From a virus: a DNA stretch of 61,021 nucleotides. Where the stretch lies: the IMG/VR virus record IMGVR_UViG_3300030060_003974, positions 1-61,021 of that record. One strand, 5' to 3'. Shown piece after piece: positions 1 through 61,021 of this stretch. The first letter of the stretch is position 1, and each line of letters starts with the position of its first letter. The notes below the pieces were generated by a model. The model ran no database searches. It was not told the DNA's origin and saw only the letters and a program-made list of their open reading frames with translations. The position numbers were made by a program, and so were the translations under genes.

Positions 1-226
1 CACAGATTGCCTCGAGTAGATTGTCATCATAGTAGTACACATCCTCAAGTATGCTTGTTTTACCACTCATATCATCAGTAAAAATATAGACATCATAACT
101 GTCTGCAGTTTCCTGTGAATGAATCATATAATCTAGTCCACTAAAATCACTTGTAGTGATTTCTAGTCGTAGATGTTCGTTAACAAATTGCTTGAATGTT
201 AATACATTTAACTCGTGATTTTTCAT
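1..226 (-). CDS. Hypothetical protein, 3' end cut by window edge
   Basis: An open frame starts at the ATG at 226-224 and stays open for 75 codons to the window edge, so the C-terminus is missing. The visible part is acidic, with a Tyr/Asp-rich stretch near residues 60-70, and matches no family I recognise. The start is supported by its position: it lies 29 nt downstream of the predicted cleavage site of the hammerhead ribozyme at 249-347, and its leader carries the AATCACAATAAA motif seen before neighbouring genes. It is the last visible gene of the leftward small-gene operon. Function unknown. Confidence 0.7.
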   Translation of the reverse strand, partial: MKNHELNVLTFKQFVNEHLRLEITTSDFSGLDYMIHSQETADSYDVYIFTDDMSGKTSILEDVYYYDDNLLEAIC

Positions 227-248
227 AATTTGATAGTTTATTGTGATT

Positions 249-347
249 ATTATAAGACACCTCTCAGATAGTTTCGTTGCTATCACTAATCGAGCCTATT
301 CACTCTCTTCAAGGTGTTTCGGATTTTGAATCCTCATCAGTTATAAT
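249..347 (-). ncRNA. Type I hammerhead ribozyme (HHR-1)
   Basis: Read on the minus strand, all core elements occur in order: stem I 5' arm AUUAUAA (347-341), CUGAUGA (340-334), stem II hairpin GGAU-UCAAA-AUCC (333-321), GAAA (320-317), stem III arm CACCU (316-312), an insertion of about 49 nt that includes GAUAG...CUAUC, the stem III return arm AGGUGU (262-257), C17 (256), and stem I 3' arm UUAUAAU (255-249). A15.1-U16.1 is intact. Cleavage is predicted between 256 and 255. It starts 2 nt after the stop of the upstream gene and frees a 29 nt leader for the gene at 226. Type I because stem I is open. Confidence 0.93.
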
Positions 348-349
348 GG

Positions 350-550
350 TTAAGCATTGTTAATCGCACCCTCATAAGAGGTTAGATTATTAGATTCCAT
401 TTCTAGTATTGTTAGCTTTGCAACCCTGATACACATTGAATATTCTGCAGGAGAAATTGATGTGTTATTGTCAAACATTTTGTTAGCTACATTCATAGCT
501 ATTTTCATATCGTTTTCAGGTTCAATACTAATAGTTTTTACTGTACTCAT
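350..550 (-). CDS. Hypothetical small protein (66 aa)
   Basis: Small acidic protein of unknown function; the middle may form an amphipathic helix (residues about 30-58). No recognisable domain. The start at 550 is supported by its leader: predicted cleavage by the hammerhead at 570-669 leaves 26 nt before this ATG, carrying AUUAAUCACAAU. Its TAA stop is followed after 2 nt by stem I of the next hammerhead (249-347), so the gene sits exactly between two ribozymes. Probably an early accessory protein. Confidence 0.8.
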   Translation of the reverse strand: MSTVKTISIEPENDMKIAMNVANKMFDNNTSISPAEYSMCIRVAKLTILEMESNNLTSYEGAINNA

Positions 551-569
551 AATTGATAGTTTTTATTGT

Positions 570-669
570 GATTAATGACTACCAACCAAAGTGGGATACC
601 GACTTACCGACTAGTGCGTTATGGTTGATAGTTTCGTAGGTGTTTAAACCTTTACTCATCAGATTAATC
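570..669 (-). ncRNA. Type I hammerhead ribozyme (HHR-2)
   Basis: On the minus strand: stem I arm GAUUAAU (669-663), CUGAUGA (662-656), stem II 655-636 pairing GUA/UAC and GGU/ACC around UUAAAC with a two-A bulge, GAAA (635-632), and stem III of ten pairs, A15.1 plus CUAUCAACC (631-623) against GGUUGGUAGU (587-578) with one G-U pair. C17 is at 577 and stem I closes with AUUAAUC (576-570). Cleavage is predicted between 577 and 576. Helices I and III differ from those of HHR-1 yet pair fully, which is covariation inside one genome. It separates the 20-codon gene at 674-736 from the gene at 350-550. Confidence 0.93.
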
Positions 670-673
670 TTGA

Positions 674-736
674 TTAGATGAACACAACCTCAAATTCATT
701 TGAGATGTCTTCTAGAGCAATTTCATAGCTTTCCAT
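674..736 (-). CDS. Putative 20-residue peptide
   Basis: Twenty codons running from ATG at 736 to TAA at 674, acidic with a hydrophobic end (VVFI). Evidence is positional: the stop of the upstream gene (738) is 1 nt away, the overlapping leader carries TAATCACAAAAACTA as in neighbouring genes, and HHR-2 begins 4 nt after its stop, exactly as ribozymes follow real genes at 350 and 60320. It could also be just the 3' trailer of the upstream gene. Function unknown. Confidence 0.45.
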   Translation of the reverse strand: MESYEIALEDISNEFEVVFI

Positions 737-737
737 A

Positions 738-1088
738 TTAGTAGTTTTTGTGATTAATAATGTATTTGTTTAATTTGTATTTATTAGATGAATCTAGCAT
801 CATAAAGAATTCATAAAAGATGGTTGTTCCTGTTAAGGTCAACACTTGCGAATATTCATCATTTGTGATGGTTGGACTCACGTTTTTGTAACGCTTAATT
901 AACACTCTTTGCGTTGTTTTTAGCTTACTCATCAAGACATCCCATTTGTCATATAAATGGTCTCTCAAAGTAGGATTGTCTGCCCAAACTAATCTAATAA
1001 AATCATACTCAAAATTGTTCGCATAAACATTGAATTTGTTTATATGGTCAACTGAATTAGCAACTATATTACTATAAGTAGTTTTCAT
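738..1088 (-). CDS. Hypothetical protein (116 aa), first gene of the left operon
   Basis: Protein of 116 residues, mixed helical, Tyr/Asn-rich, with no domain I recognise. It is the promoter-proximal gene of the leftward operon: a TATATTTG box lies at 1253-1246 and a structured leader of about 150 nt separates it from the ATG at 1088. The leader ends with GATAGTCATTAATCACAATTAAA, the same sequence found after the cleavage site of HHR-2, although no complete hammerhead core is visible here. Function unknown. Confidence 0.8.
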   Translation of the reverse strand: MKTTYSNIVANSVDHINKFNVYANNFEYDFIRLVWADNPTLRDHLYDKWDVLMSKLKTTQRVLIKRYKNVSPTITNDEYSQVLTLTGTTIFYEFFMMLDSSNKYKLNKYIINHKNY

Positions 1089-1106
1089 AATATTTAAATT
1101 TAATTG

Positions 1107-1239
1107 TGATTAATGACTATCAAAACAAGTATTACAGGCACTGCATTCATCCTGAGATTATAGTGGTATGCGAGGTAGCCCACTTGTAGTTCATAACGCT
1201 ACGTAATTTTTATGCAGTAATACTCGGTATGTCAAAGAA
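1107..1239 (-). ncRNA. Structured 5' leader of the left operon
   Basis: On the minus strand GAGUAUU (1225-1219) pairs with AAUACUU (1133-1127), and the adjoining ACUGCAU (1218-1212) pairs with AUGCAGU (1146-1140). Together this gives 14 pairs with a 6 nt bulge. Inside it GUAG/CUAC and GUGG/CCAC can form two further hairpins. It lies between the TATATTTG promoter box and the first gene. CUGAUGA and GAAA are absent, so it is not a hammerhead. It may be a leader regulator, a stabiliser or another ribozyme class. Confidence 0.55.
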
Positions 1240-1245
1240 CAGGTG

Positions 1246-1253
1246 CAAATATA
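1246..1253 (-). promoter_or_regulatory. Bacteroidota-type -7 promoter box, left operon
   Basis: TATATTTG on the minus strand fits the TAnnTTTG consensus. No TTG at the usual -33 spacing is clear (the nearest is about 25 nt away). It would start the transcript near 1239, just ahead of the structured leader. Confidence 0.55.
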
Positions 1254-2148: not shown

Positions 2149-3789
2149 ATGCAAACAGACTCAGGATACATTCCTAAAAACCTAGACTTTGAAGAACACG
2201 CAAGAGAAAAATTAATAAACGGAATTACTGCAATTTCTAAAGCAGTTAAGAGTACGCTAGGCCCACGAGGCAGAACAGTACTAATAGAGTCTCCACAACA
2301 TACTAACGGAATAACGGTAACTAAAGACGGGGTTACAGTCGCAAGGTCAGTTGCTTTACTTGATCCAGTTGAAAACTTAGCAATACAAATGATGCAGGAA
2401 GCTGCGAGTCGTACTGCAACTTCGGCTGGTGATGGTACAACTACCGCTATTGTTTTGACTGAAGCTTTAGTAAAAGCTGGACAAACCCATATTAAAGCCA
2501 AAAATAATGTGACCGAAGTTATTAAGCATGTTAATAGGTTGTCGGCTGAGATTATTAATGACCTTAAAAAAAATAGTAAAAAAGTTTCTAAATCAAAACT
2601 TGGTGCAGTTGCAGCTATTTCAGCAAACAACGATAAGGAGCTGGGAAGTATTATTGCTGATGCTTATAAGCAAGTTGGGTCAGATGGAATTGTTACAGTT
2701 GAAAAATCAATGACAGCTGAAACTTACGCAGAGGTTACTAACGGTATTAAAGTAGATAGAGGATATACTTCACCACTCTTTATTAATAACCAAAAGAAAG
2801 ATGAATGTATTTTAGAAGGAGTAAGAGTTTTAGTTTGTGACCAGGAGATTACTAATGTATTACAAATTGAGAATATTTTAAAACCAATAATAAATAAAGG
2901 TGATAAACTTTTAATTATAGCTGAGTGTAATTCTAATGTTGTAAACACACTTGCTGCCAATGTAGTTCGTAATGGTTTAAAGTTCTGTAATATCACACCT
3001 CCATCATTTGGTTATAAAACCCATGAACTAATGCAGGATATTGCTTTATCAGTTGGTGCAAAATACTTTTCTGAAAAGACTGGTGATGACTTATCACTTA
3101 TGCAGTTTAGTGATTTAGGTTATGCTGATAAAATAATTATAGGAAAAGACAGTTCGGTGTTAATTAAAAACCAAGAGATGACTGAGGAAATAAAAGAAAG
3201 AATTAGTCAGCTTAGAGAACAGCAAGAAAATACCACACACTTAGGAGATAGAAAGTTTATTAATGAACGTATTGCTAGTTTAGCAGGTTCTATCGGTTGT
3301 ATTTATGTAGGAGGTAATAGTGATGTAGAGCAAAAAGAAAAATTTGACCGAGTCGATGACTCGGTATGCGCTGTGCGCAGCGCCTTGCAAGAAGGAATCT
3401 TACCAGGCGGGGGACTAGCTTTACTTAAATTATCTGAGCAACTACAATCAAAAGACGCTAATGATGACGAAAAGGTTGCTGTTAAAATATTGAAAGACGC
3501 ATTAACAACCCCATGCAAACAAATATTAATAAACGCAGGAATAGATTATAAAGAAATAATTAGAAATCTTTCAGTAACTCAAACCCACACCCTTAAAGGT
3601 AAGGCAGGAATGTCGTATGGGTATGATGTGAAAAATCAAAAATACGGTGATATGTATACTATGGGGGTTATTGATCCTCTAAAAGTTACAAAGAATGCTT
3701 TAATAAATGCAGTATCTGTAGCAACAACTATATTAAGTACTAATGCAATTATAACCCATAAGAGATTAAATGAAGAAAAGAAAGCTTAA
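2149..3789 (+). CDS. groEL: Phage-encoded GroEL chaperonin
   Basis: Full-length chaperonin of 546 residues, which would form the ATP-driven double-ring folding chamber in the host cytosol. Landmarks: LGPRGR (37-42), TKDGVTV with catalytic D60, GDGTTT with D95, RVDDSV carrying the third ATPase Asp, a PGGG motif in the returning equatorial domain, and a C-terminal YGYDV...GVIDPLKVTKNAL block. It lacks the usual Gly-Met tail and ends in a charged NEEKKA. A promoter with a possible operator lies upstream, and GroES follows 322 nt after the stop. Together they probably fold capsid or other virion proteins. GroEL is rare in phages; identity is very secure. Confidence 0.97.
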   Translation: MQTDSGYIPKNLDFEEHAREKLINGITAISKAVKSTLGPRGRTVLIESPQHTNGITVTKDGVTVARSVALLDPVENLAIQMMQEAASRTATSAGDGTTTAIVLTEALVKAGQTHIKAKNNVTEVIKHVNRLSAEIINDLKKNSKKVSKSKLGAVAAISANNDKELGSIIADAYKQVGSDGIVTVEKSMTAETYAEVTNGIKVDRGYTSPLFINNQKKDECILEGVRVLVCDQEITNVLQIENILKPIINKGDKLLIIAECNSNVVNTLAANVVRNGLKFCNITPPSFGYKTHELMQDIALSVGAKYFSEKTGDDLSLMQFSDLGYADKIIIGKDSSVLIKNQEMTEEIKERISQLREQQENTTHLGDRKFINERIASLAGSIGCIYVGGNSDVEQKEKFDRVDDSVCAVRSALQEGILPGGGLALLKLSEQLQSKDANDDEKVAVKILKDALTTPCKQILINAGIDYKEIIRNLSVTQTHTLKGKAGMSYGYDVKNQKYGDMYTMGVIDPLKVTKNALINAVSVATTILSTNAIITHKRLNEEKKA

Positions 3790-59324: not shown

Positions 59325-59370
59325 AATATTATATTTAAATTAAACTTCGATTCGTTATCTACCACGAAAA

Positions 59371-59394
59371 GCCCGACACATTTACGTGCCGAGC
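59371..59394 (-). terminator. Hairpin with T-run (weak terminator candidate)
   Basis: On the minus strand GCTCGGCAC (59394-59386) pairs with GTGTCGGGC (59379-59371) through nine pairs including G-U, followed by TTTT. Probably ends the 59416-60979 operon, though the T-run is short. Confidence 0.5.
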
Positions 59395-59415
59395 TATTCG
59401 CAGAACAAACCACAA

Positions 59416-59856: not shown

Positions 59857-60042
59857 TTAATAGTTGTCCATTCCTAAAAAGAGGGTGATGCTTGAATCAC
59901 CCCCATCCTCCCACACTTCTATAATGTCGAGGATGTTGTCTCTATCAGGAATATTTGCTTTAGTTAAGTTCGCCACAGGCAGAATCTCAGCATCCTGAAA
60001 TTCACAATCCTGTAGCATTTTTACTAGTTCTTTTACTTTCAT
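59857..60042 (-). CDS. Hypothetical small acidic protein (61 aa)
   Basis: Starts MKVKELVKMLQDCEFQDAEI and shows beta-hairpin stretches with an acidic middle. Overlaps the upstream gene by 4 nt. No domain recognised. The MKVKELVKMLQ opening resembles a helix-capping pattern in several small phage proteins. Confidence 0.7.
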   Translation of the reverse strand: MKVKELVKMLQDCEFQDAEILPVANLTKANIPDRDNILDIIEVWEDGGDSSITLFLGMDNY

Positions 60043-60224
60043 AATTTTAAATGTTTAGGGTCGTAATTTTTACCATCTTGATATTCGAGGATTGCATAAA
60101 CATCTGCTTTGTTATCATAAGCAAACTTCATTGCCTCTTTTTTAGTTTCAAATTCATAGTCATTCTCTATGTAATCTCCACTCTCTGTGTACTCTCGTAA
60201 TTCTACTATATAATTCATATTCAT
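60039..60224 (-). CDS. Hypothetical small protein (61 aa)
   Basis: Starts MNMNYIVELREYTESGDYIENDYEFETKKEAMKFAYDNKADVYAILEY, a beta-alpha-beta pattern. The ATG at 60224 lies 13 nt after the predicted cleavage site of the hammerhead at 60232-60329, which supports the start. Function unknown. Confidence 0.78.
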   Translation of the reverse strand: MNMNYIVELREYTESGDYIENDYEFETKKEAMKFAYDNKADVYAILEYQDGKNYDPKHLKL

Positions 60225-60231
60225 ATGTTTT

Positions 60232-60329
60232 GGTTAATAAGGAAGATGATACGACATATAATCATCTATTACATTGTTGGTTTCTCCTAACAACAACCTT
60301 TTCGGATATTGAATCCTCATCAGTTAACC
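60232..60329 (-). ncRNA. Type I hammerhead ribozyme (HHR-3)
   Basis: On the minus strand: stem I arm GGUUAA (60329-60324), CUGAUGA (60323-60317), stem II GGAU-UCAAU-AUCC (60316-60304), GAAA (60303-60300), stem III AAGG/CCUU (60300-60297 with 60242-60239), A17 (60238), and stem I return UUAACC (60237-60232). The insertion holds UUGUUG/CAACAA and AGAUGAU/AUCAUCU hairpins. The TGA stop of the methyltransferase is inside CUGAUGA. Cleavage between 60238 and 60237 frees a 13 nt leader for the gene at 60224. H17 is A, which is tolerated but less common. Confidence 0.88.
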
Positions 60330-60979
60330 TCTATTGATTTAATTATTTCCTCGCATAGCTGAGGTGGTATCTTGCTTCTCTCGTGATTACCTTTTAGTCC
60401 CTGTGTACCTGTTTGGCTTCCTCTTGGTGCTGGTGTATGACACGAGTCCCCATTCTTACACATTGGTCGTGGAGTCCATCCCATATCGTTAGTCCAAATG
60501 TCAGTAGGTTTCATTCTTGAGTCGCCATATTGACAATAGGTAACAGTTTCTCTTCTGTGTTTCATATCCTCCCAATGAGGTGCTTTTCTCATTTTACCTC
60601 TTGGGTTTTCTACGTACCACAATAGCTTTGGATTCTTGTCTAGATAATCAGAAATGATTCCTAATGTTTTCTCGAAGATTTTTAAGCCGATCATCTCAGG
60701 ATCACGAGGGGTAAAATTCTCTCCTGACACCCATTTCTTACCTATACAGGCAACAGAAAAATCAGTACAGGGTGGAGATGCCCAAATGACATCAGGAATC
60801 CACAACTCATCTAACTCTCCTACATTCATTTCATTCATACGATAGTCCCAATCCATAATATCGCCCACCCAATTTGTATTGGGATAAGCTACATTATCAA
60901 CAGAGAATACCTCGTGACCACGTTGCTCGGCAACTTTGCCTACACTACGTGAACCACTAAATAGTTCTAGTATTTTCAT
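60320..60979 (-). CDS. C5-cytosine DNA methyltransferase-like protein (219 aa)
   Basis: Residues 5-12 ELFSGSRS match motif I (SAM binding), SPPCTDFS (68-75) is the catalytic PC motif with C71, and YVENPRG (122-128) is a variant of the ENV motif. At 219 residues it is shorter than typical C5 enzymes and a target recognition domain is not evident, so it may be specialised or need a partner. It could protect phage DNA from host restriction. Its last codons form part of HHR-3, and it has a hammerhead-like leader upstream. Confidence 0.82.
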   Translation of the reverse strand: MKILELFSGSRSVGKVAEQRGHEVFSVDNVAYPNTNWVGDIMDWDYRMNEMNVGELDELWIPDVIWASPPCTDFSVACIGKKWVSGENFTPRDPEMIGLKIFEKTLGIISDYLDKNPKLLWYVENPRGKMRKAPHWEDMKHRRETVTYCQYGDSRMKPTDIWTNDMGWTPRPMCKNGDSCHTPAPRGSQTGTQGLKGNHERSKIPPQLCEEIIKSIEVN

Positions 60980-60991
60980 AATTGTTGGTTT

Positions 60992-61021
60992 TGATTAAGA
61001 CACAAGAGTAATAAGCTACCA
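60992..61021 (-). ncRNA. Likely 3' half of a fourth hammerhead, cut by window edge
   Basis: The leader of the methyltransferase reads CUUGUGUC then UUAAUCAAAACC on the minus strand. This matches the stem III return arm, C17 and stem I return arm seen at the other ribozymes, and UUAAYCAAAAC is shared with the leader after HHR-3. The 5' half (CUGAUGA, GAAA) would lie beyond 61021. Only the 3' half is visible. Confidence 0.45.

Follow-up and report, generated by a model that had tools for sequence, protein, structure and literature searches.

Serial type I hammerheads between the genes of a putative early phage operon, and their predicted role in RNA processing

The early mRNA of phage T7 is polycistronic and is cut in its intergenic gaps by host RNase III, which leaves 5'-phosphate ends, while T4-like phages carry promoter-stem-loop cassettes, repeated elements that sit in the gaps between small early genes, bear promoters and are subject to modular gain and loss. 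For hammerhead ribozymes, Perreault et al. (2011) described prophages in which multiple copies flank single genes or short blocks, implying that a long transcript is processed; tandem arrangements were shown to cleave in vitro, one of them in E. coli as well, and 14 of the 18 consensus hammerheads tested cleaved in vitro (PMC3088659). A mapped early-transcript 5' end of halovirus HF2 lies at most 3 nt from a hammerhead cut, before a start codon (PMC3088659). The HDV-like theta ribozymes of gut phages, found at tRNA 3' ends, have been proposed to replace host RNases (PMC10879173), and the role of prokaryotic hammerheads in general has been called an open question (PMC6155905). The initial annotation of the DNA analysed here took serial hammerheads for an undescribed phage system, a claim that we withdraw, since Perreault et al. 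had already proposed such processing (PMC3088659).

The window analysed is a stretch of 61,021 bases, positions 1-61,021 of a virus record of 64,683 bases. A virion structural protein and a primase-like protein put it close to Flavobacterium phage elemo, Maribacter phage Panino, Cellulophaga phages and the uncultured MW202828, and the relatedness of these two proteins makes a host among the Flavobacteria likely. MW202828, the nearest sequenced genome, has no hammerhead, and we rejected the idea that hammerheads are a trait of the whole family, as 4 of 14 terminase relatives carry one or two copies and the others none. Record positions 64335-64683 repeat window positions 1-392 with 85% identity and an indel in the loop of a hammerhead helix III; this contig-end repeat points to an assembly that combines two strains of a genome that is either circular or terminally redundant. 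A GroEL-like chaperonin gene (2149-3789, plus strand; phrog_5725, E 4e-138) stands at the head of the operon that runs opposite to the one described below. Replication genes (primase-, helicase- and exonuclease-like) continue on the operon strand and structural genes lie on the opposite one, and for this reason we take the operon to be early.

We searched the record with an independent descriptor requiring a CUGANGA core, helices I, II and III, the A15.1-U16.1 pair and an NUH site. The three complete type I hammerheads annotated initially were all recovered with complete cores, the same first base after each predicted cut and exactly the same leader lengths. Hammerhead B (minus strand, 669..570), in the gap between genes g2 and g3, has a GUC site with a predicted cut at 577/576 and a leader of 26 nt; its helix I is GATTAAT/ATTAATC and its helix III ACTATCAACCA/TGGTTGGTAGT, helix II is unusual, bulged and 20 nt long, and its core strand is identical in the relatives L052, L044, L095 and L290. 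Hammerhead A (minus, 347..249), between g3 and g4, would be cut at 256/255, also at GUC, leaving a leader of 29 nt, and has ATTATAA/TTATAAT as helix I; a second allele at record 64638..64583 (minus), near the contig end, is a short copy with a 4-nt helix III loop. The hammerhead between g15 and g16 (minus, 60329..60232) has a UUA site, a predicted cut at 60238/60237 and a leader of 13 nt, and it is retained in L128 with the site UUC. The element at the right edge that had been called partial belongs to a fourth hammerhead, before g15 (minus, record 61072..60993; predicted cut 60999/60998, leader 19 nt), of which the window contains the 3' part (60993..61021); 10 consecutive N, where the window ends, break up its helix III. 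Further minus-strand copies lie outside the window at record 62254..62200, 62892..62834, 63269..63214 and 64158..64055, so that the record holds 8 distinct type I hammerheads, or 9 if the duplicate is counted, and every one of them is on the minus strand and in the same operon. By the descriptor, the plus strand has none and neither have 30 dinucleotide shuffles of the whole record.

The core and the helices of the type I class are found: a CUGANGA...GAAA core with A15.1-U16.1 and G10.1-C11.1, three helices around it with helix I open, and an NUH site at which self-cleavage is predicted. The Rfam hammerhead models report none of the hammerheads of this record at gathering or permissive thresholds, although a model match is a criterion of detection and not a defining feature of hammerhead ribozymes; a covariance model that we built from 26 related copies of the survey described below does detect them. 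Among the copies folded, the short ones are predicted to adopt the full hammerhead as their minimum-energy structure. Several copies of this record have inserts of 26-56 nt in helix III, and for the long-loop copies 249-347 and 60232-60329 energy minimisation predicts something other than a full hammerhead.

Read leftwards from a -7 box at 1253, the operon consists of a structured leader, g1, g2, hammerhead B, g3, hammerhead A, g4, a hammerhead, g5-g6-g7, a hammerhead, g8, a hammerhead, g9-g10, a hammerhead, g11-g12, a second hairpin element (hp2), g13-g14, a hammerhead, g15, a hammerhead, g16-g17-g18-g19, hp2 and g20. Ten gaps among these 20 genes measure at least 50 nt, and eight of them hold a hammerhead and two hp2; the remaining gaps are of 18 nt or less, four being 4-nt overlaps. 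All 8 hammerheads fill their gap from the upstream stop codon to the downstream start codon. The initial annotation had each one begin at or just after a stop codon, which must be amended for 60329..60232: there the upstream stop TGA sits inside the CUGAUGA core, so that ribozyme and g15 overlap. The first gene, g1 (minus, 738..1088), encodes 116 aa and has no Pfam match, and none was found for the operon genes where tested. Next comes a 20-codon ORF directly before hammerhead B, g2 (minus, 674..736; MESYEIALEDISNEFEVVFI), which is 100% identical in L052 and L290 and 70% in L044, and is likely a real microprotein gene. Hammerheads B and A flank g3 (minus, 350..550; 66 aa). The contig end cuts g4, leaving its 5' part (minus, 1..226), and a complete 135-aa allele is found at record 64560..64153; given the record ends and the N gap, we infer the g3-g4 order across the contig ends from the overlap. 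At the other edge of the window, g15 (minus, 60320..60979; 219 aa) is DNA-methyltransferase-like (phrog_757, E 1e-31), and g16 (minus, 60039..60224; 61 aa) lies 3' of the cut at 60237.

Cleavage at these sites would yield the units g1-g2, g3, g4, g5-g7, g8, g9-g10, g11-g14 (in which a hairpin other than a hammerhead separates g12 from g13), g15 and g16-g19 onwards, and the genes within one predicted unit mostly overlap or almost touch. The proposal that an early transcript is divided into single-gene messages thus agrees with the data as regards serial intergenic hammerheads with predicted cuts always between intact genes, and has to be relaxed in that not all units are single-gene. The cluster is presumably co-transcribed as one operon, judging from gene order and a single promoter-like box: a Bacteroidota-like -7 box, TATATTTG (minus, 1246..1253), is the candidate operon promoter, with an unconvincing -33 box. 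No promoter-like box occurs in the ten gaps of at least 50 nt, and on the minus strand of the operon TAnnTTTG is found only upstream of g1 and within coding sequence.

The operon begins with a structured 5' leader RNA (minus, 1126..1225), a GGGCTACCTCGCATACC element kept in L044 and L290, where its outer stem covaries; the core GTGGGCTACCTCGCATACCACTATAATCTCAGGATGAATGCAGTG is the same in L044 and differs by one base in L290. It has no Rfam match and could be a regulatory RNA. The sequence AUUAAUCACAA, noticed initially as a related start of the leaders, does follow predicted cuts; it is also found at minus 1114 before g1 and before the 20-codon g2, genes that no complete hammerhead precedes, and is therefore a leader motif in its own right. 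In addition, the g1 leader starts with a half-site (minus, 1108..1121), GATAGTC followed by ATTAATC, which copies the 3' (substrate) half of hammerhead B. Only this half was found there, with no 5' half nearby and no complete hammerhead. Half-sites of this type (GATAGT-H plus a helix I strand) occur in the g1 leader of L044, L290 and L095 too, and in L095 the upstream leader is unrelated, yet the half-site fits the altered hammerhead arms of that genome. It may serve as a second substrate or be left over from a duplication.

The element hp2 lies in the g19-g20 gap (minus, 59359..59403; CTGCG-AATA-GCTCGGCAC..GTGTCGGGC-TTTT-CGTGG-TAG), with a second minus-strand copy at record ~61604-61670, and is also present in L052, L076, L091, L095, L103, L117, L128, L050 and L015. 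It is built of a 5-bp outer stem, an inner hairpin CCUCA/UGGGG with an invariant U-G pair, UUUU or AUUU, and then UA(C/G). The outer stem varies in a paired manner by eye; RNAalifold recovered the inner hairpin and not the outer stem, and no Rfam match was found. Like the hammerhead, hp2 occupies gaps, and in relatives it substitutes for the hammerhead before the methyltransferase gene. One may speculate, though we consider it doubtful, that every sizeable early gap carries either a hammerhead or an interchangeable hp2, that hp2 too acts in processing, perhaps as a new self-cleaving or nuclease-recruiting motif, and that hammerhead B cuts the leader half-site as a second substrate; if true, this joint reading would amount to a general RNA punctuation code of these phages.

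Orthologous genes in L052, L290, L044/L128 and L095 mostly retain their hammerhead with the helices changed on both sides. Before g9, whose protein is 81% identical in L052, helix I reads ATTATAA/TTATAAT here and GATTAG/CTAATC there. In front of g4, helix I has the 3' strand TTATAAT in this genome, ATTAATC in L044, TTAATC in L095 and TTAACC in L106. In front of g11, helix I is unchanged and helix III reads ACACCTACA in this genome and ACTATCAC in L128. Related phages that kept the genes and lost the stems without compensation had been named as the case against the hammerheads; these two-sided changes favour the structure instead. Pairing persists in 16 of 16 pairs, with 125 two-sided changes in 26 copies, copies that had been selected for pairing, so that the ortholog pairs form the independent part of the support from covariation. 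Loci picked by protein alone yielded 21 hammerheads, every one of them on the coding strand. In front of the same methyltransferase gene some relatives have a hammerhead and others hp2 or nothing, so that a given gene can do without the ribozyme. We also dismissed the possibility that hammerheads are tied to one gene, because they are lacking at the majority of loci that carry a related methyltransferase gene.

In a wider survey, a pattern of core and helix II matched at least 119 viral-contig stretches; among the viral matches listed, 92 of 119 stretches hold 184 hammerheads by the descriptor. Among 118 bacterial-genome stretches bearing this core pattern, the descriptor accepts only 4, of which 2 seem genuine. 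A chance origin is ruled out by the shuffles, the strand bias and the difference between viral (92 of 119 among the matches listed) and bacterial (4 of 118) stretches. In two bacterial assemblies of ~4.2 and ~4.3 Mb the matches listed are confined to one contig each; the richer contig, C748 (assembly labelled Aliivibrio), has genes 34-40% identical to those of this phage and may be a stray phage contig. Comparable arrays occur in many uncultured phages, reaching 14 hammerheads in one 22-kb contig, and the richest records, counted with our covariance model, hold 14, 11, 10, 9 (our own record), 8, 8, 7, 6 and 6 copies. Across nine arrays, 45 of 56 gaps of at least 45 nt contain a hammerhead and none of 41 shorter gaps does. 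No isolate with an array was found in the survey; cultivated phages with single copies are the Flavobacterium elemo phages, Cellulophaga phi19:3, Methylophilales MEP301, Pelagibacter HTVC201P, Jormungand (plus Ran by DNA match) and Agrobacterium OLIVR1.

Two of the densest arrays, L048 and L124 (14 and 10 copies by the model), lie on fragments that both encode a 479-aa GHKL-ATPase-like gene and have AGGAGG after the cut in their leaders. The L048 gene matches the 485-kb phage LR745208, in which no hammerheads were found. The Pelagibacter phages L255 (38225) and L259 (2268) have one hammerhead shortly before a MarR-type regulator and an integrase gene, with ArdA genes close by in L255, a setting like that of the Agrobacterium triple hammerhead of Perreault et al. 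(2011).

The 182 distinct hammerheads share a common anatomy: a stop codon, a 6-bp helix I between A and A, a U-first pentaloop, a leader of ~23 nt and a start codon. An ATG-started ORF begins at most 120 nt from the cut in 174 of 182, compared with 53% of random same-strand positions and 28% on the opposite strand; the leader has a median of 23 nt and an upstream stop is present in 171, overlapping helix I or the core in 80. The cleavage site is GUC in 130 of 182, and helix I is exactly 6 bp in 155. An A stands directly before helix I in 173 of 182 and directly after it in 155, and the pentaloop (loop II) is U-first in 163 of 163, with U-N-A-N-U in 125; neither the A flanks nor the loop letters were required by the descriptor. 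Contacts between loop II and stem I are typical of fast natural hammerheads, and the conserved A-A flanks with the U-first loop, being as expected of a loop-stem tertiary contact, suggest such a contact here. A Shine-Dalgarno-like motif lies between cut and start in 53 of 174 leaders. Helix I is AU-rich (27% GC, median ~-3 kcal/mol) and helix III stronger (50% GC, ~-10 kcal/mol), with a median helix III loop of 4 nt in the wide set. Anatomy, position, strand and compensatory conservation can all be read directly from these sequences.

We think it probable that the early RNA is self-processed co-transcriptionally into messages of mostly 1-4 genes; cleavage itself, its timing and its benefit are what we infer. 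The early genes would be read leftwards as one long RNA, in which a type I hammerhead would fold in most sizeable gaps and cleave its own strand, probably while transcription is still under way; the cut would fall at or behind the upstream stop codon, 13-29 nt short of the next start codon. By type I geometry six to seven ribozyme nucleotides would stay on the downstream message, which would thus receive a short AU-rich leader with a 5'-OH end and the helix I 3' strand as its sole scar, released by the weak 6-bp helix I. The upstream message would gain a structured 3' end with helices II and III and a 2',3'-cyclic phosphate, helix III remaining as a cap. Message stability and translation would be uncoupled in this way with no need of a host nuclease. 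In Bacillus, the 5'-OH left by the glmS ribozyme accelerates decay by RNase J1 (PMC3997798), so the effect on stability could be stabilising or destabilising.

A different emphasis would make the hammerheads mainly recombination joints, portable gap cassettes through which small genes are gained, lost and shuffled, with cleavage tolerated or secondary. Hammerhead-bounded units do come and go between close relatives: g3 with hammerhead A is absent from L290, g8 with its hammerhead from L052 and L290, g3 is relocated in L044 and g13 in L128, and the joint before g9 in L052 resembles the hammerhead upstream of g7 fused to the g9 leader. Recombination alone, however, does not require that pairing and core persist while both helix sides change, and A-A flanks, U-first loop and 6-bp helix I are maintained across the 182 copies; we regard recombination as an unlikely main role. 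The two roles are compatible and can both be true.

Self-processing could also be conditional, with cleavage controlled by upstream translation, through stop codons within the ribozyme, or by ligands or proteins at long helix III loops. The 80 overlapping stops and the helix III inserts of this record speak for such switches, but the median loop in the wide set has just 4 nt and one allele of hammerhead A lacks the entire insert of the other, which is thus dispensable in nature; regulation of this kind appears quite improbable, and constitutive, co-transcriptional separation is the simplest reading. It is most improbable that consecutive cuts serve to make circular or re-ligated single-unit RNAs, the 5'-OH and 2',3'-cyclic phosphate ends being joined by ribozyme or ligase. 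Units in L223 (8 of 8) and L087 (3 of 3) could re-form a hammerhead from their own ends, yet compatible consecutive pairs are few in this genome (2 of 8), L062 (0 of 2) and L124 (1 of 6), and no RNA ligase (PF09414) or RtcB was found in 26 records in which the controls matched, although a host ligase is possible. Perreault et al. sought circular or spliced products and found none (PMC3088659).

Arrays of 6-14 hammerheads per operon with a strict anatomy, together with their relatives, make the role of prokaryotic hammerheads directly testable, with one transcript and eight predicted ends, and the cultivated Flavobacterium elemo phages and Cellulophaga phi19:3 offer single copies for the purpose, at minus 17270-17210 in NC_062741 (elemo) and minus 21817-21766 in NC_021789 (phi19:3). 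The arrays also reveal a large set of phage ribozymes that the present Rfam models fail to detect. We found no longer hammerhead arrays in the open-access literature searched; if confirmed, self-processing of this operon would represent RNA-only operon processing in phages on a scale beyond that literature.

Clustered phage hammerheads, the processing proposal and tandem cleavage are already known from Perreault et al. (2011). New here are long, regular intergenic arrays in an early operon, their shared anatomy and a second, interchangeable element. As in the prophage clusters of 2011, several hammerheads lie in gene-strand orientation and flank genes or short blocks, but the largest cluster named there has three, whereas we find eight per genome and up to 14 per contig, of type I, mostly with a 6-bp helix I, filling most gaps of the early operon. 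The HHphage hammerhead of haloviruses HF1/HF2 (PMC3088659; PMC7230728) likewise precedes an early polycistronic unit, 13 nt ahead of its start codon, with a mapped 5' end near the cut; it is, however, one copy with a variant core in an archaeal virus, and it heads the unit instead of separating all of its genes. Like theta ribozymes, the hammerheads would be small phage-encoded ribozymes processing RNA instead of host RNases, although they lie between protein genes and not at tRNA 3' ends. As with the T4-like cassettes, elements recur in the gaps between small early genes of the operon and are associated with modular gain and loss of genes, but its gaps are filled by a ribozyme and have no promoter-like box. 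Finally, as in the RNase III processing of T7, an early polycistronic phage RNA would be divided into messages of one or a few genes, here by predicted RNA-only cutting that leaves 5'-OH ends.
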